From: a virus | IMG/VR virus record: IMGVR_UViG_3300015368_000155 | Span: 1-21,707 of that record | Length of the DNA stretch: 21,707 bases | Direction: 5' to 3' (one strand) | In this document: positions 1 through 17,258 of the stretch, in pieces | Position numbering within the stretch: the stretch's first letter is position 1 | Layout: the number at the start of each line of letters is the position of its first letter | Made by a program: the position numbers and the translations under genes | The notes under the pieces: model-generated | Databases searched by the model: none | Seen by the model: the letters and a program-made list of their open reading frames with translations, nothing else | Told to the model about the DNA's origin: nothing

Positions 1-110
1 GTATCGGACATCCCCGTTGTGCCTTGTGGGGCAGGTGGAATACCAGCAGGTGTTGCTCCATCCCGTTGGGATTTAATCATTTGCATTAACTGATCTGAGG
101 GTACGCCCAT
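1..110 (-). CDS. Head gene downstream of portal, N-terminus only (scaffold-like position)
   Basis: Leftward gene cut by the window edge; only the first 36 complete codons are visible. The start ATG (108-110) follows an AGGAAA ribosome site, and the gene sits about 20 bases below a good promoter (137-164). The visible N-terminus begins MGVPSDQLMQMIKSQ and then becomes rich in Pro, Gly, Ala and Thr, which suits a flexible head-assembly protein. In podoviruses the gene after the portal is commonly the scaffold, so a scaffolding protein is the first guess, but the sequence alone does not show it. The reading frame has no stop to position 1. Confidence 0.6.
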   Translation of the reverse strand, partial: MGVPSDQLMQMIKSQRDGATPAGIPPAPQGTTGMSD

Positions 111-136
111 AGCATTTTCCTATTAAGTTTCTCTGT

Positions 137-164
137 ATCGTAATCTTAATCTATTGAATGTCAA
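137..164 (-). promoter_or_regulatory. Sigma70-like promoter for head genes
   Basis: On the minus strand there is a perfect TTGACA (-35, 164-159), a 16-base spacer, and TACGAT (-10, 142-137). Transcription would start near 130, about 20 bases before the ATG at 110. It lies after two stem-loops, in one of the few gaps in the leftward operon, so it could give the downstream scaffold and capsid genes extra transcription. It is predicted from sequence only. Confidence 0.5.
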
Positions 165-202
165 GTGGGGAGATTTATTTAGTTTCCTTCTCCCCGTAGG
201 AC

Positions 203-224
203 TTATTCGGTCTGACCGAAATAA
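203..224 (-). repeat. Stem-loop (inverted repeat) below mini-ORFs
   Basis: The core TTCGGTCTGACCGAA (206-220) is a perfect inverted repeat. It extends on both sides with TTA/TAA pairing and one unpaired base. It lies between the mini-ORFs and the head-gene promoter. No run of T follows on the minus strand, so it is not a classical terminator. It may slow or stop transcription, or protect the end of the upstream message. Confidence 0.5.
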
Positions 225-230
225 CCTTTA

Positions 231-246
231 GAGGGTTTTAGCCCTC
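231..246 (-). repeat. Stem-loop GAGGG/CCCTC
   Basis: GAGGG and CCCTC pair perfectly around a six-base loop, seven bases after the stop codon of the 13-residue mini-ORF at 253-294. Together with the stem-loop at 203-224 it makes a double hairpin between the portal-side genes and the head-gene promoter. No T-run follows, so terminator function is uncertain. Confidence 0.5.
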
Positions 247-252
247 GTAAGA

Positions 253-294
253 TTATTTGCGAGCTTTACGACCTTTGCGTGCTTTGCGTGCCAT
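253..294 (-). CDS. 13-residue extremely basic mini-protein (copy 2)
   Basis: The ATG at 294 follows AAGGAG with an 8-base spacer, an excellent ribosome site. It encodes MARKARKGRKARK and stops at TAA. Nine of 13 residues are Lys or Arg. The peptide resembles the neighbouring mini-ORF at 374-415 in length, composition and the RKA/RKS pattern, so the two look like paralogues. A peptide this basic could bind DNA or RNA, as the small packaging proteins of microviruses do, but nothing here proves that. The strong ribosome site, the paired arrangement and the place between portal and next head gene argue that it is translated. Confidence 0.6.
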   Translation of the reverse strand: MARKARKGRKARK

Positions 295-373
295 GAGATT
301 ATCTCCTTGAGCATACGGTCACCTATTTTAAGGGTAAGGCAGCCACAACCCTTTCCTCGTGAAGGAAGAAACC

Positions 374-415
374 TTATCTGCGTGACTTGCGTGATTTCTT
401 ATGTGCTTTACGCAT
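374..415 (-). CDS. 13-residue extremely basic mini-protein (copy 1)
   Basis: The ATG at 415 follows AGGAG with a 7-base spacer. It encodes MRKAHKKSRKSRR and stops at TAA. Eight of 13 residues are Lys or Arg, plus one His. It has the same length as the second mini-ORF 79 bases downstream and similar spacing to its ribosome site. It lies 19 bases below the stop of the 54-residue gene, inside the head operon. A DNA- or RNA-neutralising structural peptide is a reasonable guess; a leader peptide that tunes expression of the next gene is the main alternative. Confidence 0.6.
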   Translation of the reverse strand: MRKAHKKSRKSRR

Positions 416-434
416 TTTAAATCTCCTAGTTAAG

Positions 435-599
435 CTATCCCCTAACTGAACGACTTAGATCCCTAGTTTTAGCGGGTCTATCAAAACTTTTAACACCTTG
501 TACACGATACTGCAAACTTGGGCTTTTCTCACCCCTTTTCAAGGATTCTGTAGTCACCCTTGGCTGATCTGCTTTTGGTTGTACATTGCCTGTTGCCAT
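435..599 (-). CDS. Small basic protein after portal (54 aa)
   Basis: The ATG at 599 directly abuts the portal stop codon (TAA at 602-600), and GAGGTGGG just upstream, inside the portal gene, can serve as ribosome site. The 54-residue product begins MATGNVQPKADQPRVTTES and is rich in Arg, Lys and Ser with no long hydrophobic stretch. It looks like a soluble, possibly disordered, nucleic-acid- or protein-binding factor. I do not recognise a family. Its place between portal and scaffold-like gene suggests a head assembly or connector accessory role, by inference only. Confidence 0.6.
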   Translation of the reverse strand: MATGNVQPKADQPRVTTESLKRGEKSPSLQYRVQGVKSFDRPAKTRDLSRSVRG

Positions 600-2219
600 T
601 TAGCCCACCTCTGGTTCTTTTTTGCCTTTGGGAGCAGGAGGTGCTTGCTTCTGATCGCCACCTTCCTTCTCTTTACGCTTTAACTTATCCTTGAGTAATT
701 GTTTCATCGGAGGTTCTAACAAGTCAAGCAAAGATTCTTTATCAATGGCTTGTGCTTTAAACAAATTAAACGCAAGGGTTTTAAGATCTTCAGTAAAGAT
801 TGGGCTGTTAGAGTGAGCATCCACTTTTACTACAAAATCCTTAGTAAATTGCTCAGCAATAAACGGCACATCTTCAGTATCCCTAAAATGAGTATCGTCA
901 TACGATTGCATGAGCTTGAGATACAGTGTTGCCACCTTTTCCAAGCTATCTTCCACAATCAATGCCCGTTTCTTGGCTCTTGAGCTACCAAGACGAGCTA
1001 ATTGGCTTGCATGACCCTGACTTCTTACGCCAGATTCACCACGACCAGACAATACATTGGATATTCCTGATACTTCAGAGAACATCGCATCAATTTCATG
1101 GATTACCTCAAATAAATCAGGTGGCATGGTTGGTGCAAGGCGATCTGCCTTGGCATTAGGCATATCAGAAGCCAAAAGACCGCCAGCACGATTTAAAGCA
1201 AAGTTTTTCTCATCCAAAATGCCTGTAAAGCCTGTTAGGGCTGTTGGAGGGTTCACTTGCTTGGATAACAGGTCCAAAATCTCTGTCATACGGGTATTTC
1301 GAAGTTCTTGTAGCAATAAAAGCTGTTGAACTTCAGATGCACCCCAGAAATAATCATATAAAGGGTTAGGGCAGATCTGTACAAACGGACACTCACCTTT
1401 TAAGAATAAGGATGCGCCTGGTCTGTCATAGATAATTACATTCGGGGCTGCCATTGTGACTACCTGATAATCCTCGGTGTCATCGTTCCATACCCACAAT
1501 TCAGTCATCTCAACGGTATCTTCAGCTACTCTAGCCTTGTAACGGTTCATGCCGTACAAGTCCATATTCACATTACCGTAGATGGTAGGGTTGGTTTGGC
1601 TCATCACAATACGGTTTACCGCTTCTGGGATGTCCGATTCCGATACTTTAGTACCTGTAGCTAGGCGAGCAACAATAGAATCTCGCTTTGGATGGGAATA
1701 CAGACGGGCATATAGCTCAGATTTCGTAATGTAGTAGGTTTGAACGATAGCTTCTTGCCTGTCTGTATAAGGCGTATCCTCCCGCAAGACACCAATAGCG
1801 GATGGCTCAATCATGTACGGGTGTATCCCGTTCTTGTAAACCAGTTTAACAAAGGAGGTGTTGTACACCAGTGACCATGTTAAAGCTGTTGAGAACACCT
1901 GATCGGCATTGGAATTAAGCCACTCATCGTTTAAAGCCTGAGTTAATGACGGTGTTTTCTTATGTTCTGCTGTTGGCACTGATGCGCCAAGGGCAATAGA
2001 AAACCTGGTTGTTTCTGCTGAATACAGAAAGCTAGTCAATTGATCCAAATGCGGGTGGATCTTATTAAAGTAAGCTGGCGCTGATTCAGGACCAGCTCCA
2101 AACAAATAATAAGCTCGGAGTGTCGTGTAGTCACCCCTTCTCTCTTCCTTGGACACCATGCACTTGTTGATGATGTCTAAGTAAAAATCCTCACGACTTT
2201 CTCCGCTAGGTATTTTCAT
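600..2219 (-). CDS. Portal protein
   Basis: A 539-residue protein whose sequence has the style of phage portal proteins: an N-terminal helical part with a Tyr-rich stretch (about residues 30-65), a central wing/stem region, the helical segment with SEVSGISNVLSGRGESGVRS (about residues 380-405) typical of podovirus portals, and a charged, Lys/Glu/Pro-rich C-terminal tail. The dodecameric portal sits at one head vertex, binds the terminase during packaging and is the route for DNA exit. Its start overlaps the stop of the upstream gene as ATGA (2219-2216), and it lies two genes downstream of TerL, as expected for a packaging operon. No strong separate ribosome site is visible, so translation is probably coupled. 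Confidence 0.85.
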   Translation of the reverse strand: MKIPSGESREDFYLDIINKCMVSKEERRGDYTTLRAYYLFGAGPESAPAYFNKIHPHLDQLTSFLYSAETTRFSIALGASVPTAEHKKTPSLTQALNDEWLNSNADQVFSTALTWSLVYNTSFVKLVYKNGIHPYMIEPSAIGVLREDTPYTDRQEAIVQTYYITKSELYARLYSHPKRDSIVARLATGTKVSESDIPEAVNRIVMSQTNPTIYGNVNMDLYGMNRYKARVAEDTVEMTELWVWNDDTEDYQVVTMAAPNVIIYDRPGASLFLKGECPFVQICPNPLYDYFWGASEVQQLLLLQELRNTRMTEILDLLSKQVNPPTALTGFTGILDEKNFALNRAGGLLASDMPNAKADRLAPTMPPDLFEVIHEIDAMFSEVSGISNVLSGRGESGVRSQGHASQLARLGSSRAKKRALIVEDSLEKVATLYLKLMQSYDDTHFRDTEDVPFIAEQFTKDFVVKVDAHSNSPIFTEDLKTLAFNLFKAQAIDKESLLDLLEPPMKQLLKDKLKRKEKEGGDQKQAPPAPKGKKEPEVG

Positions 2220-3195: not shown

Positions 3196-4955
3196 GTACC
3201 GTACACCCCAATCTTTTTCAGATAATCACTGACATTTCTTCCGACTGTGAGTTGTTCTGCGGAAAAGTCATCCTGTACCCTAGAAACTTGTCTGGTAATC
3301 TTCTGCGCAATAAGCCTGGGCTGCACCTGTTCGGCAAAGGCTGCGCAAGCTAGGGCGCAAGCAATTACCCTATCGTCTTTGTTCCTACCTGATGCTTCAA
3401 TTGATCCGCCATCCCGAATGGTGGTTTTCATTTCCTCAAGGGTATCCATATCCCACAAGTCCAACATACCTCTTTCAAAGTAGTCTTTCATGTAGGTCAA
3501 CATACGCTCCTTGGTAGCTGCCGTAGTCATCCACCCAATAGAATTACTGATTCCGCCAAGGGTGTCGTTTCTGCGCCAGATGTAGTTTTGCATATTGCCG
3601 TACACATCCATGAGGTCTTTCCCTAATGCTGTCCCCATTGCAGAGGCTTGGCGCTTGAGGTTGCGTAGCTCATTGATGACGGCTTGCCCTGGACCATTGA
3701 TTTCCAAGTTTAATGTGGAGTTCTTGTACGCACCCGCTAGGTGAGAGATCACCCAAGCAAACTGGTAGGTGTTTAATTCAGAAGTGGCAAATGAAGCCAC
3801 CTGCTCAAGCCCATCTGCATATACCCGCAACACCTGAATACAAAAGCGATCAGCCCAATCACTAGATCCATAAGCGGGATCAGCACCGATAACATAATAA
3901 GCAGTATCCACAGGTTCTTCCCAAATCTTGAGTGTGGCAAGGCGTTCTGTAGATTTAAGCACTTCGGTATCTTGGAAGTTAACGCCAAAGCTGTAGCGGT
4001 AATAATCGCAACTAACTTTCTTGAGCTTCTTGACAGCATCGGTACACCTCGCATTGGAGAAGAACGATGTTCCCGTCATCACAAAGGCGTAGTCCTCGGT
4101 AGGTGGGAACTCCTGATACATCAGGCTATCATCTTTGATCCCTTCGTACAACTTCCAACGCCACCACGCTATCTGGCGAGAATTGATCTCTACCCCATAA
4201 AGTTTTTTAATGTCCCGTACCCACTCCTTTTCCTCACCAGTGAGCTTGCCATCCCAATACACCTTGTAGGTCTGACCTTCAGGATCTAGGCTATACATCT
4301 CATTGCGCCACCACCCACAGAAGATTGCTCGTTGGGTTTTAGCCCTTTTAGCAGTGGTGTACATATCGTGAAACATATTAAAACCACGAGCTGTCGATTC
4401 AAAGGTATATAACCGATCAGGGTTGGTTTCCGCCAAAGAAGCTAGGAGAGAAGCTAGTCCTTCTTCGTCACCCCACGAGCTTGTTTCTGTGCCATGAAGG
4501 AAGGTGATACCTTTCCCACGACCCAGAGATCCTTTCGCTCTAAGCCCAGCGACTTGATAAAATAATCGACTGCGATTTTTGAGGGCAAGGGCGTTCCTGT
4601 TGTGAGTAAGGATCGGGATTTTGTACTCTTTGGGTAAACCATCCATGTACATTGCGAGGGTGCTTCTGAACATATCTCGATTTTCTTCGGTGTCTGTTGT
4701 GAGCGTTCCTTGCAGTCCTGGGTGGGTGAAGTGCCAATAAAGGTCAAGTGCGAGGGAGATTGTGGTGATTCCAAGTTGCCTTCCTTTCAGAATGACAAAG
4801 AAATGGCATCCATCTGCCAATCCTTTAGCCATTTCGTTCATTACATAGGTCTGAGAACCCATGAGGTTATCGAGCTTGCGTAAGCCTTGCTCTTTTGTTT
4901 CAATCTTGAGTTGATTACAAAAATGATAGAAATGCTTGAGATTAAAGTCGCTCAT
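3192..4955 (-). CDS. terL: Terminase large subunit
   Basis: The packaging motor: an ATPase that pumps DNA into the prohead and a nuclease that cuts concatemers. Seen in the 587-residue product: a Walker A-like loop LKGRQLGITT (56-65), a Walker B-region stretch ITFLHGTETSSW (150-161), a coupling motif FESTARG (about 185-191), the conserved QEFPPTEDYAFVMTG (281-295), then an RNaseH-fold nuclease with Asp359 (IGADPAYG), Glu419 (LEINGPGQ) and a C-terminal Asp in NKDDRVIACA. ATG 4955 is preferred over the TTG four codons upstream because it overlaps the glycosyltransferase stop as ATGA. The motifs and the portal two genes downstream make the call firm. Confidence 0.95.
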   Translation of the reverse strand: MSDFNLKHFYHFCNQLKIETKEQGLRKLDNLMGSQTYVMNEMAKGLADGCHFFVILKGRQLGITTISLALDLYWHFTHPGLQGTLTTDTEENRDMFRSTLAMYMDGLPKEYKIPILTHNRNALALKNRSRLFYQVAGLRAKGSLGRGKGITFLHGTETSSWGDEEGLASLLASLAETNPDRLYTFESTARGFNMFHDMYTTAKRAKTQRAIFCGWWRNEMYSLDPEGQTYKVYWDGKLTGEEKEWVRDIKKLYGVEINSRQIAWWRWKLYEGIKDDSLMYQEFPPTEDYAFVMTGTSFFSNARCTDAVKKLKKVSCDYYRYSFGVNFQDTEVLKSTERLATLKIWEEPVDTAYYVIGADPAYGSSDWADRFCIQVLRVYADGLEQVASFATSELNTYQFAWVISHLAGAYKNSTLNLEINGPGQAVINELRNLKRQASAMGTALGKDLMDVYGNMQNYIWRRNDTLGGISNSIGWMTTAATKERMLTYMKDYFERGMLDLWDMDTLEEMKTTIRDGGSIEASGRNKDDRVIACALACAAFAEQVQPRLIAQKITRQVSRVQDDFSAEQLTVGRNVSDYLKKIGVYGT

Positions 4956-5671
4956 GTAGTGATCCAAGGCAATTTACCGTCAAACTTCTCCAAAATGCGC
5001 TTGTTGCCTTCAATAAAGAACTCAGGCTGTACGCCACAGCTCCCACCCATCCGAAAATGAAAAGTGTGTTTACCTGTAGCAGCAAACTTGGGAACAATAC
5101 GGGTAGCTGCCTGATAAAACTGGCGATCTACCGTAGGATCAGGGCGGTTTAGCAAAATAGCCAATTGTTTAAGGTATTCTGTTTTCATACCCCACATACA
5201 CCAATCTACAAAGCGATGCCCAGGGATATTCCAAGTATCGTGTAGCTCTCCGAGGGCTTCGCAGTTGTCATCAAACAAAAAGTTACCCTCCTTATCGTGA
5301 ACTGATCTAAGGCTATAAGCCCAATCATAGCCCTCATCAATTTTATCCATGATACTTTTTACATGGTCGAAAGAATACCAATCATCGTCATTACAAAAGA
5401 AAGTAACATCCTCGGTAATCAATTGAGGCGCAGCAGCTAACCACCGTTGCCCCGCATATCCGTTGCCACCGATCTTGCCATCCCAGTAGCAGATCTTTAC
5501 ACACCCATTGGCGTAAAGCCTTCTGAGTTCAACAAAGGTATTAAAGTCCCCGTCACACAAAATGTAATGCGTAGGGGTTATCCCTTGTTGGCTTGCAATA
5601 GATTTAATGCAATTTGCTAACTCCGTTGGGCGCTTCCCGTTGGTTACGGTCACTACGGCACAGGTTTTCAA
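4952..5671 (-). CDS. GT-A fold glycosyltransferase-like protein
   Basis: A 239-residue protein with family 2-like glycosyltransferase features: a beta-strand start (CAVVTVTNGKRP, 4-15), a conserved CDGD at 39-42, and the metal/nucleotide-sugar DXD-type motif FCNDDDWYS at 92-100. His/Asp/Trp-rich stretches follow (DTWNIPGHRFVDW). It starts at TTG, overlapping the upstream stop as TTGA; no better start is seen because the N-terminus matches the family start. Placed directly before TerL in the packaging operon, it may glycosylate a virion protein or alter host surface glycan. The substrate cannot be told from sequence. Confidence 0.75.
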   Translation of the reverse strand: MKTCAVVTVTNGKRPTELANCIKSIASQQGITPTHYILCDGDFNTFVELRRLYANGCVKICYWDGKIGGNGYAGQRWLAAAPQLITEDVTFFCNDDDWYSFDHVKSIMDKIDEGYDWAYSLRSVHDKEGNFLFDDNCEALGELHDTWNIPGHRFVDWCMWGMKTEYLKQLAILLNRPDPTVDRQFYQAATRIVPKFAATGKHTFHFRMGGSCGVQPEFFIEGNKRILEKFDGKLPWITT

Positions 5672-13658: not shown

Positions 13659-13927
13659 CAGTCGCTCAGACCTCGATTAGCGCTTATAAAGAGCATAAAG
13701 CCAGTGGCAAGGTAGGCTCACAAGCTAGAGCTATATTGGACTTTATGAATCCTGGTGAGGGGTATTCACGCAGGGAGCTTCATGTTTTAACTGGATTAGA
13801 GTTAAGTTCAATTTGCGGTAGGGTCAATGAGCTACTAGAGATGGGGATGCTTAAAGAAGGATCTAAGCGCAAATGTATGGTTACTAAAAAGACGATTTCA
13901 CCTGTTATTAAGGATTCATTGTTTTAA
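13655..13927 (+). CDS. Winged-helix-like DNA-binding protein (90 aa)
   Basis: ATG 13655 overlaps the micro-ORF stop as ATGA, better supported than an earlier in-frame TTG at 13631. Residues about 38-72 read as a winged helix: YSRRELHVLTGLELSSICGR followed by VNELLEMGMLKEGSKRKC. This is the type of small helix-turn-helix protein common in phage early and replication regions, and it may regulate the metabolic cassette that follows. Target unknown. Its stop overlaps the next start as TAATG. Confidence 0.65.
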   Translation: MTVAQTSISAYKEHKASGKVGSQARAILDFMNPGEGYSRRELHVLTGLELSSICGRVNELLEMGMLKEGSKRKCMVTKKTISPVIKDSLF

Positions 13928-14544
13928 TGAAAAATTGCACAAAAGAAGATTTAATTGAGTTTGAGAAAGCGGTAGCAGCTCACTGGGAAGCAGGAGATTT
14001 ACCTTATCTCATTCATTTATCAGGCGGTAATGAGGATTTTTTGATTGACTTGTTTAAGGAGATTAAAGATGGAGATTGGATTTTCAGCACTCATCGGAAT
14101 CACCATCACGCTCTATTGGCTGGAATACCCGCAAATGAGCTTATGGCAAGCATTTTGGATGGCGATTCTATGTTTGTTTTCGACAATAATCGTCATTTTT
14201 TTACTTCAAGCATTTTATCTGGCACTTGCGCTATTGCAACAGGTCTGGCTTATGCTTTAAAAGAAGAAGGTAGCTCTAGCAGGGTCTGGTGTTTCTTAGG
14301 TGATGGCGCAGAAGAACAAGGACACTTTTATGAGGCGGTAATGATGGTCCAAGGGCATGATTTACCTTGCACATTCATTATTGAAGATAACAACCGTAGC
14401 GTTGATTCCACGCTAGAGGAGCGCTTACCTTATCAATTTAGATTTAGATTGCCAGGGTGCGTAATCCGCAACAACTACGATCCTACTTATCCTCATGCGG
14501 GTAATGGCACTAAGAAGCACATTGTATTTAAGGACATCAAATGA
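13927..14544 (+). CDS. Thiamine-diphosphate enzyme, E1-alpha-like subunit (205 aa)
   Basis: The pyrophosphate-binding half of a 2-oxoacid dehydrogenase E1-type enzyme. Seen: STHRNHHHALLAGIP (54-68), as in E1 alpha chains; SGTCAIATGLAYAL (98-111); and the TPP/metal motif GDG at 125-127 followed after 27 residues by NN at 155-156. These chains handle activated acyl or ketol groups. It is much shorter than a dehydrogenase alpha chain (over 300 residues), lacking most of the C-terminal region, so a stand-alone decarboxylase or C-C bond-forming enzyme is more likely than a classical dehydrogenase. Pairs with the beta-like gene at 14864. Substrate unknown. Confidence 0.85.
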   Translation: MKNCTKEDLIEFEKAVAAHWEAGDLPYLIHLSGGNEDFLIDLFKEIKDGDWIFSTHRNHHHALLAGIPANELMASILDGDSMFVFDNNRHFFTSSILSGTCAIATGLAYALKEEGSSSRVWCFLGDGAEEQGHFYEAVMMVQGHDLPCTFIIEDNNRSVDSTLEERLPYQFRFRLPGCVIRNNYDPTYPHAGNGTKKHIVFKDIK

Positions 14545-14867
14545 ATAATGAACCAGTAGCGTGGATGTTTGAAAAAGATGGTGCATATATGTGCATTAAA
14601 CACGACAACAGAGTTAATTATGATGGCGGTATTCCACTCTATACCCATCCAGTAAACCCATATCAATCTATGCAAATCCTTGAGGATGGGCAAATTGTGC
14701 CTGTGTTTAAAGAACTAACAGATGAGGATATTGCTAAAGTTGTGCATGAGTTAAATCAAAAAGCAAATACTCCTGAACGATGGGTAACTGCTATGCAGAT
14801 AGGTGCTGAAACCATTATTCAATTAAGGGATGAGTTAGCAATACTAAGAAAGGCACAGGGGAAATGA
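14541..14867 (+). CDS. Small phage protein of VAWM...PLYTHP type between TPP subunits (108 aa)
   Basis: ATGA overlaps at both ends join it tightly to the TPP subunit genes. The N-terminal half, EPVAWMFEKDGAYMCIKHD then GGIPLYTHPVNP, is a pattern I know from many phage proteins without known role. The C-terminal half is helical (ELTDEDIAKVVHELNQKAN, then a final charged helix with LRDELAILRKAQGK). It is not a known part of TPP enzymes. It could be an insertion in the operon or a partner of the complex. Confidence 0.65.
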   Translation: MNNEPVAWMFEKDGAYMCIKHDNRVNYDGGIPLYTHPVNPYQSMQILEDGQIVPVFKELTDEDIAKVVHELNQKANTPERWVTAMQIGAETIIQLRDELAILRKAQGK

Positions 14868-15379
14868 GCTACAAGGATGAGCTTACTAAAGCCAATACCA
14901 AATTAGCAGGTTATCCCAATGTGCGTTTTGTGGGATATGGTCTTAAAAAAGGTCGTGCTTTAGGAACGCTCAAAAATGTCAAAGATGAGCAAATTATTGA
15001 GATGCCTGTAGCAGAGAACTTGATGATGGGGTTTGCAATAGGGCTATCACTCAAGGGATACCTCCCAGTGGTCTTTATTGAGCGTATGGACTTCTTAATG
15101 AACGCAATGGATGCAATGGTCAACCATTTAGACAAAATAGCCAAAATCTCTCATGGTGAGTTTCACCCAAAAGTCATTATTCGTTGCATTGTGGGCAATA
15201 CCAAGAAGCCTCTTTATACAGGCGCTACTCATACTCAAGATTTAACCGAAGGAATACGCCAAATGGTGAGCTTTCCTGTGTGGAAAATGAAAGATGAGGG
15301 TGATATTGAGGTGTTTTATGACCTTGCCAGCAAGACTTTTGATTCCGTAATGTTGGTCGAATATAAGGATTTAGCGTGA
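14864..15379 (+). CDS. Thiamine-diphosphate enzyme, E1-beta-like subunit (171 aa)
   Basis: The pyrimidine-binding half of the split TPP enzyme. Seen: IIEMPVAEN (44-52), whose Glu51 matches the Glu that activates TPP in E1 beta chains; GFAIGLSLKGYLPVVFIERM (56-75); and DAMVNHLDKI (83-92), as in the VN--AK motif; then GATHTQDL (110-117). It stops where E1 beta chains continue into their transketolase C-terminal domain, so this gene holds the pyrimidine domain alone, like the small subunits of sulfopyruvate decarboxylase. ATGA start, GTGA end. No E2 or E3 gene is present in the window. Confidence 0.85.
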   Translation: MSYKDELTKANTKLAGYPNVRFVGYGLKKGRALGTLKNVKDEQIIEMPVAENLMMGFAIGLSLKGYLPVVFIERMDFLMNAMDAMVNHLDKIAKISHGEFHPKVIIRCIVGNTKKPLYTGATHTQDLTEGIRQMVSFPVWKMKDEGDIEVFYDLASKTFDSVMLVEYKDLA

Positions 15380-16470
15380 AAAGCAACAAATATAGCGATT
15401 TTAAGATCTTTCACCATCCAGAAAAGCTGATTTCTTTTGAGGCGGGGAGAGTTACTGCACCTGTGTATGTTCGGGTCAAGCCAATCAACCTTTGTAATCA
15501 TGGCTGTTTCTTTTGCGTGTACAGCACTGGTTTTAGAGTAAAAGACGGTGGAGAAGAAGAACATATTGTTAGCGGTATGCACGAGGACATGAAGGAAGAT
15601 GACATCATCCCTAGAGATAAGATGATTGAGATCTTGCATGACCTAGCTAACATGGGTACTAAAGCGATTACCTGGAGTGGTGGTGGAGAGCCATTGATTC
15701 ACCCAGATATATCAGAGTTCATGCGCTTGACATTAGATCTCAAGATGGACCTTTCAATCATTACTAATGGGCAGAACCTAGTTAAAGAGAAGGCAGAAGT
15801 GCTATCTCATGCCAAGTGGGTGCGTGTATCAATGGATTACACCAATGGCGAGGAAATGAAGCGGTTTAGGAATGTGCCAGAAAAGAGCTTTGATAGCATC
15901 ATCCGTAATTTAAAAGGTTTTGCAGAAATGAAGGATGCGGGATGTGATCTGGCTGTTAATTATATTGTGCATCGCAACAATTACAAAAATCTTGGGGGAC
16001 TAACCCAGTTATTAAAAGATAGCGGTGTTGAAAATGTGCGTTTCAGTCCAATGTATGTACCAGATTTCTACGAATACCATAAACCGATAGCAGAGGAAGT
16101 TAATGAACAACTTAAAAACATTCAAGCTATTACTACTGAAAAGTTTAGTGTTAATAGCACTTACAACATTACTCCTGGGAGTAGTCACTCTCATACTAGA
16201 AGCTATAACAAGTGCTTCGTTATGCAGACCGTACCCGTCATCGGTGCAGACCTCAATGTATATGCCTGTCATAACAAAGCCTACGATAAGTCAGGATGTA
16301 TAGGATCTATCAAGGACACCAGCTTTCACAGGCTATGGTTTAGCCCTGAAACACAAGCCTACATGGACAAATTTAACGCTAAAACCACCTGTATGCACGA
16401 GTGTTCTAACGACAGAAAGAACATATTGATTAACGAAGTCATTAACGCTAGTACCGACAACTTTATTTAA
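15376..16470 (+). CDS. Radical SAM enzyme with SPASM-like C-terminal domain
   Basis: A 364-residue protein. The SAM-binding iron-sulfur cluster motif Cx3CxxC is Cys40, Cys44, Cys47 (LCNHGCFFCVY), followed by the GGE motif at 103-105 (SGGGEPLIHPD). The C-terminal part has five more Cys (280, 298, 308, 339, 343), the last two in CMHEC, suggesting an auxiliary iron-sulfur cluster of the SPASM/twitch kind. Such enzymes start radical reactions on peptides, sugars or nucleosides. It starts with GTG overlapping the E1-beta stop (GTGA), so it is coupled to the TPP genes and probably shares their pathway. The substrate cannot be told. Confidence 0.9.
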   Translation: MKSNKYSDFKIFHHPEKLISFEAGRVTAPVYVRVKPINLCNHGCFFCVYSTGFRVKDGGEEEHIVSGMHEDMKEDDIIPRDKMIEILHDLANMGTKAITWSGGGEPLIHPDISEFMRLTLDLKMDLSIITNGQNLVKEKAEVLSHAKWVRVSMDYTNGEEMKRFRNVPEKSFDSIIRNLKGFAEMKDAGCDLAVNYIVHRNNYKNLGGLTQLLKDSGVENVRFSPMYVPDFYEYHKPIAEEVNEQLKNIQAITTEKFSVNSTYNITPGSSHSHTRSYNKCFVMQTVPVIGADLNVYACHNKAYDKSGCIGSIKDTSFHRLWFSPETQAYMDKFNAKTTCMHECSNDRKNILINEVINASTDNFI

Positions 16471-16478
16471 GGAAAATC

Positions 16479-17258
16479 ATGGCAACTAAAAAGAAAGCAG
16501 CACCTAAAGCACCTGTACAACCGATTATTTTTATTGCTACCCCTATGTATGGCGGTATGTGTGCTGGCTTTTACACTCAGTCAATATTGCAGTCTATTAG
16601 CGTACTAAGCCAAGCGGGAATCCAAACTCAGTTTAGCTTTATGTTTAATGAGAGCCTTATTACTAGGGCTAGAAACGCTTTAGCGCATACCTTCTTAAAA
16701 TCTAACTCTACTCATCTGATGTTTATTGATGCAGACATCAAATTCAGACCAGAGGACATTGTAAGAATGATTCAAGCTGATAAAGACATCATCTGCGGTA
16801 TCTACCCTAAAAAAGAGATCAACTGGAATAGCACTAAGCAAGCAATGGATGCGGGTGTGCCAAATGACCAGTTAAAAAGCCATACAGGTAGTTTTGTAGT
16901 CAACCTAGTGGACTATGCAGGTGAAGTCACTGTTCCCATAGATCAACCAGTAGAGATTTTTAATGGTGGCACTGGCTTTATGCTGATTAAACGCAAGGTG
17001 TTTGAGAAGTTAAAGAAAAAAGTTCCTTCTTACACCAATGATGTAGGAGATCTCTCAGGTCAGTTAAATCACGCAGAGCAAATCCATGAATACTTTGCTA
17101 CTTCAATTGAGCCTGGTAGCAATCGCTTGTTATCTGAGGATTATCACTTTTGCCGTATCTGGAGATTAGCGGGTGGAAAAGTGTTTGCAGCGCCTTGGGC
17201 TAACTTAGGACACTTAGGAAGCTACTTGTTTGAAGGACAGCTTACTCCAGCACCTTGA
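16479..17258 (+). CDS. GT-A-like glycosyltransferase, phage type (259 aa)
   Basis: The ATG follows TTAAGGAAAATC. A Lys/Ala/Pro-rich start (1-15) precedes a GT-A-like fold: IIFIATPMYGGMCAGFY (16-32), the DXD-type motif FIDADIKFR (82-90), then NGGTGFMLIKRKVFEKL (about 164-180) and a LLSEDYHFCRIWR stretch, where the acidic pair is expected near the acceptor site. Common in tailed phages near metabolic genes. As last gene of the TPP/radical SAM cassette it may attach the modified sugar or base product to its acceptor. It ends 17 bases inside the convergent gene. Confidence 0.75.
   Translation: MATKKKAAPKAPVQPIIFIATPMYGGMCAGFYTQSILQSISVLSQAGIQTQFSFMFNESLITRARNALAHTFLKSNSTHLMFIDADIKFRPEDIVRMIQADKDIICGIYPKKEINWNSTKQAMDAGVPNDQLKSHTGSFVVNLVDYAGEVTVPIDQPVEIFNGGTGFMLIKRKVFEKLKKKVPSYTNDVGDLSGQLNHAEQIHEYFATSIEPGSNRLLSEDYHFCRIWRLAGGKVFAAPWANLGHLGSYLFEGQLTPAP

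Follow-up and report, generated by a model that had tools for sequence, protein, structure and literature searches.

The virus record IMGVR_UViG_3300015368_000155, whose entire 21.7-kb stretch is referred to here as the window, carries on its minus strand two genes of only 13 codons, mini1 and mini2, which are almost certainly real and which, together with two pseudoknots, PK1 and PK2, form one module on the portal side of the head-gene promoter. The mini1 gene (positions 374–415, minus strand; ATG at 415, stop at 374) encodes MRKAHKKSRKSRR and is led by the Shine-Dalgarno (SD) sequence AGGAG (423–427, minus strand), 7 nt upstream of the ATG; mini2 (253–294, minus strand; ATG at 294, stop at 253) encodes MARKARKGRKARK behind AAGGAG (303–308, minus strand), 8 nt upstream. 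As read from the sequence, their products would be self-standing peptides of ~13 residues, each carrying ~8 positively charged side chains and practically none that are negative. An earlier note on this DNA had described both basic frames, and their sequences, ribosome sites and spacings were all borne out; it had overlooked PK1, PK2 and the promoter, and its view of the region was to that extent incomplete. The placement between the portal and the next head gene also holds, except that a conserved 54-codon gene separates the portal from mini1.

Within the window, mini1 and mini2 are the sole SD-led ATG frames of 8–20 codons with at least 40% lysine plus arginine (K+R). The chance expectation, derived from first-order Markov sequences of the same composition, is 0.10 such frames per sequence, and at 60% K+R, the level of mini1 and mini2, a set of 60 such sequences contained none. 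MW202753 and MW202825, two relatives with complete GenBank records, each hold the same two genes and no further frames of this kind. In both, the GenBank annotation lacks the minis and places antisense ‘hypothetical proteins’ over the mini/pseudoknot region (L002/L176 4740–4877 and 4874–5038; L003 6779–7039), which are probably spurious. The reading of the earlier note, genuine tiny genes that fall below the usual size cut-offs, is strongly supported by conservation, synteny and codon-level selection: a gene of a dozen codons in a phage structural module can be conserved and under selection and yet escape annotation.

Relatives were collected in two ways: portal homologues were gathered from IMG/VR viral contigs and a genome collection, and a strict mini2 frame pattern was scanned over IMG/VR viral contigs without use of the portal. 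In the latter scan, 38 of 39 matches lie ~400 nt downstream of a homologous portal, the remaining one (L103) being a 1-kb piece too short to reach it. Short Lys/Arg-rich frames were likewise present at the same place in 81 of the 82 unique portal-selected regions with at least 420 nt downstream: 72 hold two SD-led minis, eight hold one, one holds three and one holds none, and when the pattern-selected loci are added (93 regions), the corresponding counts are 82, nine, one and one. Homologues of mini1 were classed as such in 78 unique regions. The ratio of nonsynonymous to synonymous polymorphism (pN/pS) is 0.26 and 0.36 for two length sets of mini2 and 0.40 and 0.32 for two sets of mini1, compared to ~0.9–1.1 under a column-shuffle null; the observed values were reached by 0 of 300 shuffles in three sets and by 4 of 300 in the fourth. 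Both frames are under codon-level purifying selection and are therefore kept for their peptide. Relatives that retain the DNA while breaking the frames or losing the SD sequences were not encountered, the exceptions among the 201 loci described below being one frameshifted mini1 (contig L307) and four mini2 genes with GTG starts. As for the wider distribution, no comparable peptide was found at the portal in ten annotated-phage loci whose terminase or capsid is remotely similar (Hydrogenobaculum phage 1, BUCT555, Mx8, Vibrio douglas 12A4, CRP-7, Mwe-JY13, H6/1 and three Manatee Spring phages).

What is conserved in the peptides is charge rather than identity. Among the relatives, they measure 9–16 residues and contain mostly seven to eight K+R (mode, eight), and only one acidic residue was found among the 1465 residues of 113 distinct peptides. 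Their residues are arranged as (basic-basic-small)n, R and K being exchangeable and the third positions mostly occupied by small residues, so that charge is kept while residues swap, as in MARKARKGRKARK, MARTKRKGRKARK and MRGRKKGRKARK. Nearly every peptide ends in R or K, none of the 113 has a C-terminal aromatic residue, and hydrophobic residues of the membrane-active kind are almost lacking. The pattern common to mini1 and mini2, together with a copy number that ranges from one to three among relatives, renders the proposed origin as duplicated paralogues plausible. The arginine codons CGT and CGC account for 92% of Arg codons in the minis and for 55% in the accompanying portal genes, with the minis exceeding the portal at 90 of 91 loci and rare Arg codons being avoided. 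This preference suggests a well-translated product and is the opposite of what a stalling leader predicts. A variant with a penultimate cysteine, which could permit disulphide dimers or metal binding, occurs in several clades (MARKSRKGRKSCK, MARKARKSCR, MARKGRKGCK).

The minis are bracketed by structured RNA, and PK1 and PK2 are very probably real pseudoknots. PK1 (315–351, minus strand) is an H-type pseudoknot between mini1 and mini2, in which helix S1 pairs 351–348 with 335–332 and helix S2 pairs 346–337 with 324–315; GGGU/ACCC thereby crosses a 10-pair helix (for instance, GUGGCUGCUU/AAGUGGCCGC). In the alignment, from which one clade carrying an additional base pair (GACTT/AAGTT type) and a handful of rows misaligned by MAFFT were omitted, 90% of cells are paired and 38 cells carry two-sided changes, distributed over 9 of the 14 pairs, compared to 12.4 in shuffles (0 of 500). 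The shuffle counts for both pseudoknots ignore kinship, which is accounted for by a slide control: the PK1 signal is lost when the partner is slid by one to three columns. Because an unconstrained pseudoknot finder gave other folds in some sequences, the window among them, PK1 rests on the covariation count. Its conserved G-U pairs are on the gene strand, and the selected molecule is therefore most likely the RNA of that strand. PK2 (167–201, minus strand), also of the H type, lies between mini2 and the promoter; S1 pairs 201–198 with 188–185, S2 pairs 195–189 with 173–167, and loop 3 is A-rich, as it usually is among relatives. The S2 alignment contains 17 two-sided cells versus 6.9 in shuffles (0 of 500), and 105 of 111 unique cores are able to fold into PK2; the long helix comes in 39 different versions and the short helix in 21.

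Three simpler candidate structures accompany the pseudoknots, all on the minus strand. A hairpin of the TTCC...GGAA type (353–367), conserved in the spacer alignment, directly follows mini1 and precedes PK1. Two further stem-loops are seen in the alignment: one (223–254; AATCTT/AAGGTT around GAGGG/CCCTC) overlaps the end of the stop codon of mini2 and has an AATCC-tetraloop-GGATT counterpart in relatives, and the second (203–222), of the TTCGGT/ACCGAA type, is missing in some clades. The succession of pseudoknot, short open reading frame (ORF), hairpin and pseudoknot is reminiscent of transfer-messenger RNA (tmRNA); unlike in tmRNA, mini2 has its own SD sequence and start codon, there is no tRNA-like domain and no Rfam family is matched. 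Indeed, ARAGORN detected no tRNA or tmRNA in the window or eight relatives, and a tmRNA-like molecule was ruled out, the tRNA-like domain being missing. Rfam 15 yielded nothing above the gathering score in the window and nothing at E ≤ 1 in 12 relatives, which excludes a known Rfam family as the source of the module RNA. PK1 and PK2 are previously undescribed RNA elements, and two strongly covarying pseudoknot motifs are thereby added that Rfam lacks.

The association between the peptides and the pseudoknots was assessed with two scans using PK1 sequence patterns and blind to the minis, which yielded 201 loci. PK1 adjoins an SD-led ATG mini2 in 195 of the 199 loci with enough sequence and a GTG-start mini2 in the other four, whereas mini1 lies upstream of PK1 in 175 of 197 loci, the remaining 22 displaying GTG starts, a weak SD, an N-terminal extension (L265), the frameshift mentioned above or loss. 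Reduced versions of the module also exist: one mini with PK2 only (L427, L433 and L438), PK1 and mini2 without PK2 (L455) and one mini with no pseudoknot at all (L428 and L447). A single portal-selected contig, L175, has no module, and a scan with its head protein led to a sister clade (L386–L403 and L411), which retains an intact portal, small gene, promoter and head gene but lacks mini1, mini2 and PK2 and has no space for PK1. No pseudoknot without an accompanying mini was found among the loci examined. Minis without pseudoknots do exist, and the peptide therefore looks primary, with the RNAs serving its production; peptides as the primary element and pseudoknots as accessories would be the simplest reading of these distributions. 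L175/L387 (IMGVR_UViG_3300010354_001700) appears to have arisen by natural recombination between these clades: its portal is that of the mini-bearing clade, its promoter and head gene are those of the mini-less one, and the two parts meet within the small gene that follows the portal.

A few bases beyond the end of PK2 lies a sigma70-like promoter, TTGACA-16-TACGAT (137–164, minus strand), from which, judging by its conservation, the head genes very likely start on their own, downstream of the module. The -35 hexamer at this place is TTGACA or TTGACT in 100 unique relatives, although these regions were picked by TTGAC and the count hence shows position, not frequency; in 63% of them, versus 28% of shuffles, it is followed by a -10-like hexamer that matches at four or more of six positions. 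Many relatives carry a palindrome, possibly an operator, that lies between the -35 and -10 elements or surrounds them, in the region corresponding to window 164–137 (for instance, GTGTTTGTAAGTGGTTACAAACAC and TTAGGTTTAACCTAA).

As to function, we consider it an even proposition that the minis supply abundant polycations which act on nucleic acid during head assembly, in a yield set by the pseudoknots. The parts of this proposal differ in strength. Their composition makes it probable that the peptides bind nucleic acids as polycations; a role in packaging or in the virion, which is suggested by the location of the minis in the terminase-portal-head module, falls short of an even chance and is proposed tentatively. 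The nucleic acid-neutralizing role envisaged in the earlier note keeps its footing as far as the charge, the near absence of acidic residues and the codon preference are concerned, whereas the location in the virion stays putative. The peptides would be made in quantity, and their most likely target would be the phage DNA at head assembly or packaging, where they might neutralize charge, condense DNA or mediate contact between the DNA and the portal or head. With 72,000 phosphates in a 36-kb genome, neutralizing 1% of them would take about 90 peptides of charge +8, which makes local action, confined to the portal or to a portion of the DNA, easier to envisage than bulk neutralization. PK1 ends ~6 nt upstream of the mini2 SD, beside the expected footprint of the 30S subunit, and would be well placed to control initiation, with PK2 closing the 3′ side. 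The pseudoknots would thus most likely set peptide yield via mini2 translation, and might additionally or instead protect the short mRNA; feedback of the peptide on mini2 translation, of the kind exerted by T4 gp32, is conceivable.

Several observations weigh against this proposal. The module is missing from the sister clade and hence not essential in general; the head-gene promoter is located downstream of the minis and does not control them; the Arg-codon preference could partly stem from constraints other than expression; and the pseudoknots could act on something besides mini translation.

The nearest functional analogues of the minis would appear to be the J and VP8 proteins of Microviridae (phiX174, SpV4, phiEC6098), which are likewise very short, strongly basic and devoid of enzymatic domains. 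Microvirus J directs the entry of the genome into the procapsid and remains inside the capsid (PMC11281519; PMC13386984), and in SpV4 VP8, which has 38 residues, the C-terminal Phe38 is buried in the capsid wall (PMC11281519). By contrast, the 9–16-residue minis nearly all end in R or K and lack the aromatic anchor of SpV4 VP8, and they come from a tailed phage rather than from single-stranded DNA (ssDNA) microviruses. It is because of the missing anchor and this different origin that the minis are not filed with J/VP8.

A different reading has the peptides act mainly on the neighbouring pseudoknots, as arginine-rich-motif RNA binders or autogenous repressors in late gene control. We regard this as unlikely, even though the peptides have the size and R/K content usual for arginine-rich RNA-binding motifs and form one unit with the pseudoknots across loci. 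Like the arginine-rich peptides of lambda N and HIV Tat, the minis comprise 10–20 R/K-rich residues beside a structured RNA, but they are whole free genes with a regular (basic-basic-small)n repeat, and RNA binding is only putative for them. A further parallel is offered by T4 gene 32, which encodes a nucleic acid-binding protein and is preceded by an H-type pseudoknot, an arrangement resembling PK1-mini2, where binding is presumptive. The T4 pseudoknot, to which gp32 binds, lies 67 nt ahead of the gene 32 start codon, with an A+U-rich stretch in between (PMC3014915); PK1, by contrast, ends close to the mini2 SD. Unlike T4 gene 32, mini2 also has a second pseudoknot behind it. The persistence of minis without pseudoknots in L428 and L447 argues against regulation of this kind, as does the head-gene promoter downstream of PK2, neither pseudoknot being needed when the module is absent.

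That the peptides instead target the host while it is taken over or lysed, by binding its DNA, RNA, ribosomes or membranes, is in our view quite unlikely. Cationic peptides can bind ribosomes and membranes. Small phage proteins often target the host (review, PMC11323111), but the strict terminase-portal-head location in all relatives and the scarcity of membrane-active hydrophobic residues speak against such a role.

More improbable is a leader function, also raised in the earlier note, whereby ribosome stalling or sensing of charged Arg/Lys tRNAs would switch a downstream fold and the peptide would be a by-product. Classical leaders consist of a short ORF with structured RNA behind it, a pseudoknot follows each mini, and leader peptides, too, keep their amino acids while synonymous codons drift; attenuation leaders of the trpL/hisL type similarly combine an ORF of ~14 codons with structured RNA downstream. 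Unlike these, however, the minis have no conserved run of one regulatory amino acid, as R and K interchange with charge kept and the other positions are mostly small residues; they use frequent codons, avoiding the rare Arg codons, and vary in copy number from one to three; and no intrinsic terminator was found. The next gene has a separate promoter directly after PK2, which the head gene keeps when the module is absent. Transcription attenuation was rejected upon finding no terminator-like sites in window positions 1–700. Finally, that the minis are chance frames in a conserved non-coding region rich in RNA structure has practically negligible probability, being already refuted by the codon-level test (pN/pS of 0.26–0.40 versus ~0.9–1.1), by frames open in essentially all relatives and by the lack of such frames in the 60 Markov sequences.

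Small basic phage peptides and cis-acting pseudoknots are each already known, and we found no account of such a module in the literature searched, coverage of which was partial; that the module represents a new kind of system is a possibility we entertain with reserve. In such a new module type, stand-alone polycation genes of 9–16 codons, on a structured mini-mRNA bracketed by dedicated pseudoknots, would provide a protamine-like packaging peptide or a head/portal peptide-RNA complex. If the module does serve packaging or act as a peptide-RNA unit, the minis would rank with the smallest functional genes known to be conserved in double-stranded DNA phages. Trypsin fragments such peptides, and standard virion proteomics would hence miss them. 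With a defined peptide family and natural clades that have or lack the module, the action of encoded small polycations on tailed-phage DNA becomes testable.

The genomic context is that of a tailed phage from an uncultivated group, with complete relatives of ~34–36 kb. On the minus strand, the order is terminase (4967–3192), two genes of unknown function, portal, the 54-codon gene, mini1, mini2 and the next head gene; the presence of terminase, portal and major head protein genes identifies a tailed phage rather than an ssDNA microvirus. The portal gene (600–2219, minus strand), a flanking anchor of the module, matches PHROG 1216 (E = 1.8e-8). The conserved 54-aa gene (435–599, minus strand) flanks the module without being a member; it carries KADQPR and LQYRVQG motifs and a basic C-terminus, and no match was obtained in PHROG, where the copy of a relative was queried, or in Pfam. 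The 5′ part of the next head-module gene (3–110, minus strand; ATG at 110) runs off the window, and its homologue (L002:5048–5536) lies upstream of the major capsid gene.

No host is claimed from metagenome-assembled bins: three contigs of this phage clade (L126, L127 and L128; CAIPQU010000169, CAISKC010000485 and CAITMU010000022) occur in bacterial bins labelled beta-proteobacterium and Legionella, but these look like virus contigs binned with bacteria, likely through contamination. Elsewhere in the window, regions 13927–17258 and 4952–5671 contain genes resembling radical SAM and glycosyltransferase genes, along with two genes each matching half of PHROG 34187, and a possible interpretation of these genes is an auxiliary metabolic cassette.
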